Source: a virus. Taken from it: 64,000 nucleotides of DNA. The stretch spans positions 1-64,000 of the IMG/VR virus record IMGVR_UViG_3300021962_000021; one strand, written 5' to 3'. Of the stretch, positions 58,753 through 61,214 are shown piece by piece; the stretch's first letter is position 1, and every line of letters begins with the position of its first letter. The notes under the pieces were generated by a model. It was not told the DNA's origin. It searched no databases and saw nothing but the letters and a program-made list of their open reading frames with translations. Both the position numbers and the translations under genes were made by a program.

Positions 58753-59124
58753 GGGGATGTTTGGTATTGATTGCCATGCGAATGATAATATCACAAGTAG
58801 AGAAATGATACTATCTCTTAATATCGTATCGAAACAATAAATGACGAAAAGTCAACAATGACTTACGATGACCTTATGGCATTCGTAGGTATGGATTACG
58901 CTGTAGCAGCCTAATCCTACTCGGGTCGGAATACATATAACCTAGGAACAGAAGTATCTATAAAGGTGGAAAATTGACTGAACCCAAAATCGAGTCAAAA
59001 CATTGATTATGATAAAATGTAAAAACTCATATATTTGTCAGTTGTGAATAACTGAATAAACTTGTGAGACGTTGGTATTATGATTACTCGGTAAGACACG
59101 GGTTCGACTCCCGTCATCTCCACA
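58753..59124 (+). ncRNA. ssrA: transfer-messenger RNA (ribosome rescue)
   Basis: About 372 bases. The 5' end GGGGATG pairs with CATCTCC (59115-59121) as acceptor stem. The T-arm is ACGGG-TTCGACT-CCCGT. TCACAAGT (58791-58798) pairs with ACTTGTGA (59060-59067) as helix P2, extended by ATAATA/TATTAT. Inside is a tag frame beginning near 58840 (NDEKSTMTY) and ending MDYAVAA at a TAA at 58912-58914. Tags ending in A-L/V-A-A are recognised by ClpXP. CCA is not encoded (ACA follows). The tag, about 24 codons, is longer than the typical 10. The resume codon is uncertain (probably just before 58840). Confidence 0.92.
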
Positions 59125-59145
59125 AAAACGCTAATATGTAAAGTA

Positions 59146-59321: not shown

Positions 59322-59394
59322 CGTGGGGTAGTAGCAGCGGTAGCTCGTTAGGCTCATAACCTAAAGGTCGGTGGTTCGAATCCATCCCCCGCAA
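59322..59394 (+). tRNA. initiator tRNA-fMet (CAT)
   Basis: Anticodon CAT at 59355-59357. The acceptor stem CGTGGGG / CCCCGCA has the C1-A72 mismatch that marks bacterial initiator tRNAs for formylation, and the D-arm region (GCAGCGGTAGCTCGT) and anticodon loop CTCATAA match E. coli fMet closely. The three G-C pairs of the anticodon stem are reduced to two here (TTAGG/CCTAA). Discriminator A; CCA not encoded. Confidence 0.93.
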
Positions 59395-59401
59395 CAAAGT
59401 A

Positions 59402-59593: not shown

Positions 59594-59625
59594 TTTGGTA
59601 GATTAATTTTTTTTTACTATATTTA
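59594..59625 (+). promoter_or_regulatory. promoter of the giant structured RNA
   Basis: TTTG (59594-59597), 20 bases and TATATTTA (59618-59625). Transcription should start near 59632, just before GGGG, and the third boxA-like motif follows at 59681. Confidence 0.72.
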
Positions 59626-59631
59626 TTAAAC

Positions 59632-60570
59632 ATTGGGGTTGTAAATATTCTTACTAATGTAAGTTGTAAAGATTCCCCGATTAGTTCTTTAAAAGATTGA
59701 AAATATTTTACATAGTAGGCTCGTCCTACATAGTAAACAACCGCCGCCTATGGTGGTTAAATAAACTACGAAAGTAGGATAAAGTGAGAATGCTTGGTTT
59801 AGTATTCTTGCGGCATCAGCAATGGTGCTTGAGTAGGCAAGTGGGATATCATCTGAGCCTTGTACGAAAGGGTAACACTATATCGGAAGGGTTTGGGTGA
59901 CTGGGGATATGTAGAATCTCTAGTTGAGTTCGGAAGAACAATAAGAATAACCCATAGAATATCAGTAAGAAGTATGTGGCTAATCACTATATATCATTGC
60001 GGTATTCAATTTCAAAGTGGTCTTAAAACCAAGCTATCCGAAAGGACGTAAGGTATGTTAATGTACAAGTGGTGTTGTTATTAACCTTTAATGTGGGACA
60101 CCAATCCCTATTAATGAAGATGACTTAAAAAATGGTGTTGACGATAACACATTGGGTAGTTTAGTATTCTCTCGTTCAAAAGATGGGGGAGCTGGTTGGC
60201 AAGCCACTACCTGAACAATCTACAAACCAAACTCAAATTTGCTTTAGGTGCAAACTATAAATCAATTTTAAGCTTAAGTGCTTGCCAGTTACGGACGAAA
60301 GGTGTCTACATAGTAATGGGTTGTCCATTGCCACGATACCACCGCAAGTGGTCTGTGATTCTTACGAAAAGTTTCTAGTTCCGCAAGAATGAATTTGCTC
60401 GGCAGGGTAGAAGAAATAGAGTAATGAGAGAGTAGTCAGTAACTCAATGAGTGGTTAGCATTACTAACCGACACTGAACGGATACATCTCAAAAGGGTGT
60501 GGATAAGAAAGGAAAAAAATAATCTTTCTAAAGGACGTTCTTCCCAAATGTGTAATCTCAGCATTTTATA
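59632..60570 (+). ncRNA. giant structured non-coding RNA (GOLLD/ROOL-like candidate)
   Basis: About 940 bases with no gene-like frame but dense hairpins. Examples: AACCGCC/GGTGGTT (59739-59758), CTAC-GAAA-GTAG (59766-59777), AGAATGC/GTATTCT (59787-59808), GTTC-GGAA-GAAC (59928-59939), TGGTGT/ACACCA (60070-60103), GTGTT/AACAC (60135-60150), AATGG/CCATT (60315-60329), ACCAC/GTGGT (60338-60352), GGTTAG/CTAACC (60453-60469). Several loops are GNRA. It has a promoter and a boxA-like motif, and leads into tRNA-Gly. Position beside phage tRNAs and size recall GOLLD and ROOL RNAs, but I cannot confirm family membership. Confidence 0.72.
59681..59694 (+). promoter_or_regulatory. boxA-like motif, copy 3
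   Basis: TTAGTTCTTTAAAA, identical to copy 1, in the leader of the giant RNA. A GGGG...CCCC-closed leader stem (59635-59678) precedes it. Confidence 0.5.
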
Positions 60571-60571
60571 A

Positions 60572-60665
60572 GCGGAGTTAGTGTAATGGTCCACGCGGGT
60601 TCGCCCACGGGTTAGCACACCCCTCTTCCAGGGGGGAAGATGTAGTTCGATTCTATGGCCCCGCT
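60572..60665 (+). tRNA. tRNA-Gly (TCC) with a D-loop insertion
   Basis: Anticodon TCC at 60627-60629 in loop CTTCCAG. Acceptor GCGGAGT / GCCCCGC (one A-C mismatch), T-arm TGTAG-TTCGATT-CTATG. The D-loop is about 30 bases instead of 8, with an extra 21 bases (60591-60611) that include GGG-TTCG-CCC and two CCACG copies. Otherwise it matches bacterial tRNA-Gly very well. Discriminator T; CCA not encoded. Confidence 0.75.
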
Positions 60666-60721
60666 CAATTACGATTTTCGTAGTCTTTTTCCAATGTTGT
60701 TCTGGCAGGTGAGTGGACAAG

Positions 60722-60945
60722 TAGGTTAGGACTTTAAATATCAAACCTAAAAGTTGTAAGACTGTCAGTTTTTGTGGGGGAAGTTTTTTACTATAAACAA
60801 ACGTAATCTAACACGATATGATTACCGAATAAAAGTAGTAGGCCGCTACATTGAGAGTATTCGTTCCCCTTATTACTCTCTTTATTAAAGGCTAAATGGT
60901 AATTTGATGAGGCTAGTATTAACCGGAGCATGACTTGACGTGGCG
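60722..60945 (+). ncRNA. structured region downstream of tRNA-Gly, possibly the 3' part of the giant RNA
   Basis: No supported frame. TAGGTT/AACCTA (60722-60749), then GATTACC (60820-60826) pairing with GGTAATT (60898-60904) around two hairpins, GTAG/CTAC (60835-60849) and GAGAGT/ACTCTC (60853-60880). If continuous with the upstream RNA, the tRNA-Gly would be embedded in a molecule of about 1.3 kb. Confidence 0.4.
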
Positions 60946-60996
60946 TATTTTGAAATCGAATTACTTTTATTTAAAAAAATATTATATATATTAGAG

Positions 60997-61155
60997 ATGA
61001 AAACTTTAACATTACATACAAATTGTTCTAACCAATCATTGAGAAATGAGTGGCAGGGGATTAGTATGTTTAATGCTATATCAAATCCGGCAACGCTTAA
61101 TTTAGGCAAGGTGGATTATATTAGCAAGATGTTAGAGGACACTGATGTAGGATAA
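60997..61155 (+). CDS. small protein of unknown function
   Basis: A 52-residue frame (MKTLTLHTNCSNQSLRNEWQ, then GISMFNAISNPATLNLG) with an AT-rich upstream region containing TATATATT. A terminator follows. Codon use is like that of neighbouring genes. No family recognised, and it could be part of the RNA region instead. Confidence 0.4.
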   Translation: MKTLTLHTNCSNQSLRNEWQGISMFNAISNPATLNLGKVDYISKMLEDTDVG

Positions 61156-61183
61156 AATGTAAAAATTTTAGAACAATATTTGA

Positions 61184-61214
61184 AACCTCTAACTCACAAA
61201 GTTAGGGGTTTTTT
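61184..61214 (+). terminator. Rho-independent terminator before the tRNA array
   Basis: Ten pairs AACCTCTAAC / GTTAGGGGTT with a 7-base loop, then a T-run. It separates the small gene from the following tRNA block. Confidence 0.85.

Follow-up and report, generated by a model that had tools for sequence, protein, structure and literature searches.

A complete GOLLD RNA gene with a boxA leader, an adjoining tRNA-Gly, and a nearby small CAUGA-loop RNA in a phage genome

Results

Organization of the locus

The window, that is, the whole 64,000-nt stretch of DNA analyzed here, belongs to a 238,219-bp virus record containing one GOLLD copy. ARAGORN places a tmRNA (58753–59123), tRNA-Met (59322–59395), and a tRNA array (from 61220 on) around this gene; such flanking on both sides, in a 238-kb virus record, is the setting expected of GOLLD members. 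Several long open reading frames of the window resemble T4-type replication genes by eye, suggesting that the phage is probably T4-like; its host is probably a member of Bacteroidota. The features of the locus are as follows.

59594–59625, plus strand: predicted Bacteroidota-type promoter (pattern match), TTTG (-33), N19, TATATTTA (-7)
59632–59682, plus strand: leader hairpin AUUGGGG/CCCCGAU immediately 5' of boxA (fold, by inspection)
59683–59691, plus strand: boxA-like site AGTTCTTTA in the GOLLD leader; motif conserved in GOLLD leaders
about 59707–60151, plus strand: GOLLD 5' region; 142 pairs in the consensus of 25 relatives, 78 with compensatory changes, 97.4% paired
60152–60564, plus strand: GOLLD 3' region (RF02032); 107 pairs, 43 with compensatory changes
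60215–60279, plus strand: A/U-rich variable linker within the 3' region; unpaired in the Rfam alignment, its columns variable in length and sequence among relatives
60572–60664, plus strand: tRNA-Gly (UCC) directly 3' of GOLLD (alignment with relatives)
60899–60964, plus strand: 66-nt structured RNA with a CAUGA loop, outside Rfam 15 (R1 and R2 covariance models, 85.7 and 76.3 bits)
60997–61155, plus strand: small ORF of 52 aa (MKTLTLHTN...) located 3' of the small RNA and 5' of the terminator (listed from 60940; by inspection)
61182–61212, plus strand: intrinsic terminator-like hairpin at the end of the unit, 8 nt upstream of tRNA-Asn; counterparts in relatives L012, L054, and L056

The phage-encoded tmRNA (about 58753–59125) has the tag DEKSTMTYDDLMAFVGMDYAVAA and its own predicted promoter and boxA, and a tmRNA with a different tag is kept in each of the relatives L026, L118, and L100. 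Short ORFs similar to that at 60997–61155 occupy the same place in L054, L056, and L012 (position 7939, 24 aa). Since the terminator lies so close to tRNA-Asn and no Bacteroidota-type promoter was found between it and the tRNA array, the array may depend on read-through. The layout of a terminator followed by the array is repeated in L012, L054, and L056.

Identity and fold of the giant RNA

An Rfam scan revealed a match to GOLLD (RF02032) on the plus strand at 60152–60564 (278.6 bits against a gathering threshold of 150; E = 1.8e-78), and the alignment spans model positions 1–416, i.e., end to end. The less conserved, separate structured 5' region of GOLLD is present at 59707–60151. The RNA at about 59707–60564 is GOLLD, and its 5' and 3' regions together are complete, with a length of approximately 860 nt. 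The ROOL model found no match in the window, either at gathering threshold or at E up to 5, and no giant RNA family of Rfam other than GOLLD matched the window up to E 5. The first-pass annotation had proposed a giant structured RNA between the tmRNA and the tRNA array and left GOLLD, ROOL, and a new class as its possible identities; the proposal was sound, and the identity is GOLLD.

The minimum free energy of 59632–60564, folded as a single strand, was -259.7 kcal/mol, compared with -221.9 ± 6.1 kcal/mol for 20 dinucleotide-preserving shuffles (z = -6.2), none of which was as good as the native sequence. Relatives were gathered from IMG/VR by DNA patterns and GOLLD model searches, and 25 complete GOLLDs were aligned. 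Where the first-pass annotation had counted more than ten hairpins, the resulting consensus contains 256 pairs in 41 helices; two of the GNRA loops that it had noted are GAAA at 59770–59773 and 60040–60043. Standard pairs occupy 97.5% of cells, a percentage biased upward because the consensus structure was predicted on the same alignment, and the compensatory changes are the stronger evidence. Changes on both sides occurred in 121 of the 256 pairs, in both regions, compared with a shuffle mean of 77.6 (0/500 shuffles as high), and sliding the partner by 1–3 columns left just 26–38 pairs changing on both sides. This covariation, which had been named as the way to check the stems, shows that the 5' and 3' regions fold separately.

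Open reading frames in the stretch reach at most 63 aa on the plus strand and 102 aa, the longest, on the minus strand, and no conserved long reading frame was found in the GOLLD stretch, as anticipated from the earlier failure to see a credible coding frame. The compensatory changes refute a coding explanation of the stretch. The loop CCGCAAG (60382–60388), mapped by position only, retains the GC dinucleotide that one self-kissing loop would be expected to have. The 25-relative alignment gave no clear signal of a covarying loop pair between the 5' and 3' regions, and one candidate kissing interaction of this kind, UUGCG/CGCAA, was rejected by inspection: L050 and L051 alter one side, and L056, L171, and L188 alter the other, without compensation. 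Neither ARAGORN nor locus comparison revealed a tRNA in the 65-nt linker of the window GOLLD; a linker tRNA is an optional trait that is not required of members.

Promoter and boxA leader

Transcription from the predicted promoter would start at approximately 59632, coinciding with the start given by the first-pass annotation, which had also assigned the RNA its own promoter and a boxA-like motif. Similar Bacteroidota-type promoters precede the tmRNA (58680) and tRNA-Met (59236), and only four plus-strand promoters of this type occur between 58 and 64 kb: one each for the tmRNA and tRNA-Met and two for GOLLD. The promoter pattern was present in 30 of 48 GOLLD leaders (expected, 0.09 per leader).

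The boxA motif was found in 44/48 GOLLD leaders (expected, 0.05 each), mostly 470–483 nt upstream of the 3' region; it and the predicted promoter keep a fixed position ahead of GOLLD. In the window, AGTTCTTTA is present in all three leaders, those of the tmRNA (58738), tRNA-Met (59298), and GOLLD (59683). The region within 500 nt of the 16S rRNA gene was scanned in 117 Bacteroidota contigs, and the same motif occurred in 50 of them (expected, 0.07), mostly 80–150 nt upstream. These motif matches suggest that the phage may borrow the host rRNA antitermination system for its long untranslated RNAs.

The 3' end of GOLLD

The first-pass annotation had suggested that a tRNA-Gly is embedded between two parts of the giant RNA. 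The tRNA-Gly exists, but its place is outside the RNA, immediately beyond the GOLLD 3' end. An approximately 21-nt hairpin is inserted in its D loop (about 60591–60612), and because of this hairpin the gene was missed by both ARAGORN and Rfam. The insert is common to L174, L176, and L181 and occurs once in the genome; the notions of a hairpin unique to the window phage and of a mobile hairpin were therefore rejected. A second, canonical tRNA-Gly(UCC) is encoded at 65273–65347, so the GOLLD-adjacent copy is not needed for decoding.

A 3'-end-forming unit was located at most about 20 nt from the GOLLD 3' end in 47/50 loci; some of the following classes, namely, the degenerate tRNA-Gly and the second type of mini-tRNA, were assigned by eye. 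Twelve loci have an ARAGORN-visible tRNA within approximately 20 nt (Gly, Met, or Asp; one without a type call), six a tRNA-Gly that is degenerate or missed by ARAGORN, and four, including the window, the tRNA-Gly with the D-loop hairpin. Another 12 have an anticodon-less mini-tRNA consisting of an acceptor stem, a short connector, and a T arm, and six (L062–L064 and L067–L069) a second type of mini-tRNA. An intrinsic terminator at equal distance takes the place of the tRNA in seven loci, and three (L166, L047, and L048) lack a clear unit. In GOLLD-bearing Acinetobacter phages such as Ab15, GOLLD is followed at a distance of 13 nt by tRNA-Asp.

Among 13 distinct sequences of the first type of mini-tRNA, pairing in the acceptor stem was 100%, and four of its six pairs varied on both sides. 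A pattern scan of 1.39 Mb found the first type only at GOLLD ends, the remaining matches mostly resembling parts of ordinary tRNAs. RNase P accepts substrates composed of an acceptor stem and a T arm; hence, on the most straightforward view, GOLLD owes its 3' end to the tRNA or what is left of it, and a terminator can act instead. The exchange of 3'-end forms across GOLLD loci is observed directly, and RNase P is the likely enzyme. We found no report of tRNA-directed GOLLD 3' maturation or of mini-tRNAs in the part of the literature that was covered.

A small CAUGA-loop RNA

The downstream structured part described by the first-pass annotation held up in one portion: 60899–60964, reaching 19 nt past the end that had been given, is well supported, whereas 60668–60810 has no significant fold of its own. 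It had been regarded as a second part of the giant RNA, and this view has to be given up, because it belongs to a different, small RNA family. Within this stable-RNA region, the small RNA stands as an element of its own and not as the second half of GOLLD.

The first sign of this family was a conserved block between tRNA-Gly and the terminator in L054 and L056. A query with the core AACCNGAGCATGACTTG retrieved about 80 IMG/VR stretches, in most of which the core is flanked by complementary arms of dissimilar sequence. A covariance model built on 12 copies then found 50 copies from 50 sources at E below 0.3, and the RNA is present in about 60 phage contigs overall. Both sides vary in all ten outer-stem pairs, and an inner pair is found as A-U, U-A, and G-C. 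Pairing reached 96.5%, compared with 77.2% in shuffles, in an alignment that was fitted to the model, the complementary arms having been found independently beforehand. The copy at L012:10087–10149 (UACGCAUGACGUGG) lacks the core and keeps the CAUGA loop; its inner stem changes from GAG/CUU to ACG/CGU, which supports this stem.

Each phage record carries one copy, including records of 118–287 kb, and the idea of a dispersed mobile element was dropped for this reason. GOLLD was matched in 33/50 records bearing the small RNA (31 above the cut-off). The small RNA takes one of three positions: 3' of GOLLD plus the adjoining tRNA unit, immediately 3' of tRNA-Met, or in the interval separating boxA from tRNA-Met. 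It is on the tRNA strand wherever tRNAs were seen; in the window, it lies approximately 330 nt past GOLLD, and it is closer in many relatives. In L071 (5550–5700) and L091, copies of approximately 36 nt come right after a tRNA without a type call and are followed by another tRNA-like element with a strongly altered middle. Weak model matches in the distant GOLLD phages L015 and L016 were dropped as apparent coding sequence.

Rfam (4227 families) gave no match at 60899–60964 in the window at E up to 5, none at the small RNA in nine loci at E up to 1, and none in 15 loci at gathering threshold. Core forms with G after CUUG, a pattern that excludes the A form of the window, had no match in 84,980 prokaryote genomes (GTDB species genomes), and a host or prophage origin was rejected for the forms so covered. 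BLAST gave no convincing match among the sequenced isolates of INPHARED, and partial literature coverage yielded no description of this RNA.

Other structured RNAs among the tRNA genes

A tRNA-Leu-like RNA of approximately 115 nt is encoded at 64941–65054 of the record (L312:941–1054), with the acceptor GCCGGAG/CTCCGGC and an unusual middle (GAGACGT, GTGCAGT..CCGAAA.GG.CTGCGTG). ARAGORN and Rfam see no tRNA in it, and counterparts occur in L070, L090, L100, L101, L103, L105, L106, L111, and L118 (6253); it could represent one more structured RNA in these phages. Modular hairpin units, GGTTGATTGGG...GCCAATCRTAAAAGNAGATGTCCAC...CATCTTCTNCTTTCC, lie between tRNA genes in L070, L090, L101, L111, and L012 (9914–10006), in some phages in tandem, and had no Rfam match in the loci scanned.

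Discussion

The explanation that we hold with good confidence combines the complete GOLLD, its own promoter, a boxA leader, a 3' end made by RNase P, a cage, and a separate small RNA. GOLLD would be transcribed from its own Bacteroidota-type promoter, and a leader that copies the host rRNA boxA may allow the polymerase to complete the long untranslated RNA without premature termination. The GOLLD 3' end is most likely produced by RNase P, whose cut would fall 7 nt beyond GOLLD, where tRNA-Gly begins; this position is taken in other lineages by an ordinary tRNA, a mini-tRNA that lacks an anticodon, or an intrinsic terminator. As a family member, the mature RNA presumably forms the 14-subunit cage known for another GOLLD, which may hold or sequester something late in infection.

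GOLLD genes sit in tRNA islands anyway (PMC12286853), and a neighboring tRNA is therefore expected. The adjacent tRNA could thus be a mere neighbor, with the 3' end trimmed by exonucleases to the last stable hairpin, and the three loci without a clear 3'-end unit agree with this. We regard it as unlikely, since mini-tRNAs with covarying acceptors and no anticodon are kept solely at GOLLD ends in the 1.39 Mb scanned, lineages without the tRNA have an intrinsic terminator at equal distance, and the window genome retains a second canonical tRNA-Gly(UCC). The mini-tRNAs and their exchange with terminators, rather than mere tRNA proximity, argue for processing. Still less probable is a tRNA-shaped tail that remains part of the functional GOLLD and of its cage, where it might be cargo or offer a binding handle to the ribosome or a synthetase. 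The tRNA-like shape is indeed more conserved than the decoding parts, and tRNAs sometimes found within the GOLLD linker have been proposed as cargo (PMC12286853); however, the terminator lineages have nothing tRNA-like at all, and host RNase P is expected to cleave any good tRNA-like structure.

That the small RNA is a 3' extension of GOLLD and no independent element would fit its position downstream of GOLLD, but it is very improbable: in L076, L082, and L086 it precedes tRNA-Met and GOLLD, directly after boxA; it also occurs in contigs in which GOLLD was not matched, the 174-kb record of L070 being one; and its core is identical in all contexts, an invariance that holds by construction because the search fixed the core. 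Nothing beyond the general look of the sequence speaks for ROOL, another giant RNA class, or a coding region with chance hairpins, and the strength of the RF02032 match, the lack of any further giant RNA family up to E 5, the 121 pairs with compensatory changes, and the lack of a conserved long frame reduce this reading to a negligible one. As to what the small RNA does, we favor, at roughly even confidence, a candidate hairpin in the stable-RNA operon of the phage that would bind a protein or act in cis; a trans-acting small RNA is a more doubtful candidate, and a ribozyme a rather improbable one.

In the description by Kretsch et al., GOLLD is encoded by phages close to tRNA islands, its function is unknown, and its 5' and 3' regions are separate (PMC12286853). 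The linker sometimes holds tRNAs, GOLLD forms a 14-mer cage, and a cryo-EM structure is available for GOLLD env-38 (PMC12286853). The mycobacterial GOLLD is part of a tRNA cluster: it is flanked by tRNAs on either side and contains a pseudo-tRNA (PMC6582537). The window copy resembles known GOLLDs in its full 3' region, its separate 5' region, and its A/U-rich variable linker in the 3' region, and in being a phage-encoded RNA of more than 800 nt beside tRNAs and a tmRNA. It is unlike them in its probable Bacteroidota host, its tRNA-free linker, the D-loop-expanded tRNA-Gly right after its 3' end, and its rRNA-type boxA leader. ROOL is likewise a giant, cage-forming phage RNA near tRNA islands (PMC12286853), but the window lacks any ROOL match up to E 5.

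Theta ribozymes are HDV-like and lie beside phage tRNAs (PMC10879173). The small RNA is similarly small and located beside tRNAs, often tRNA-Met, of large phages, many of them of Bacteroidota. In contrast, its shortest copies are approximately 36 nt, it has one simple outer stem with a CAUGA loop and no apparent HDV-like double pseudoknot, and, in most loci, the start of its outer stem does not coincide precisely with the tRNA 3' end; its size and layout do not fit a theta ribozyme. As with rRNA leaders and phage nut and put sites, boxA here precedes a long RNA that is not translated, and several phages have boxA, then a small hairpin RNA, then a tRNA. It differs from rRNA boxA and nut/put sites in that boxA is here recognized from sequence and antitermination is a presumed function; the small RNA is also found 3' of GOLLD and 3' of tRNA-Met with no boxA.

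The giant RNA is already known as a class; the gene architecture and the adjoining small RNA merit follow-up. Taken jointly, the data suggest, with somewhat more than even confidence, a dedicated GOLLD cassette that would begin with an rRNA-like boxA leader and end with an RNase P signal derived from a tRNA, a mini-tRNA in some lineages serving solely to set the 3' end. The same region would encode a small RNA family, present as a single copy and not described before, that accompanies GOLLD and phage tRNAs. GOLLD is among the largest structured RNAs known. The 50-locus comparison leads to a cheap and concrete test of GOLLD 3'-end formation, for which GOLLD plus a mini-tRNA is the natural construct. 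With its boxA leader, GOLLD seems to be handled by phages in the manner of rRNA. The small CAUGA-loop RNA, which is well supported as a family, has no Rfam entry, and occurs alongside GOLLD, is a candidate for a partner or regulator of this RNA.
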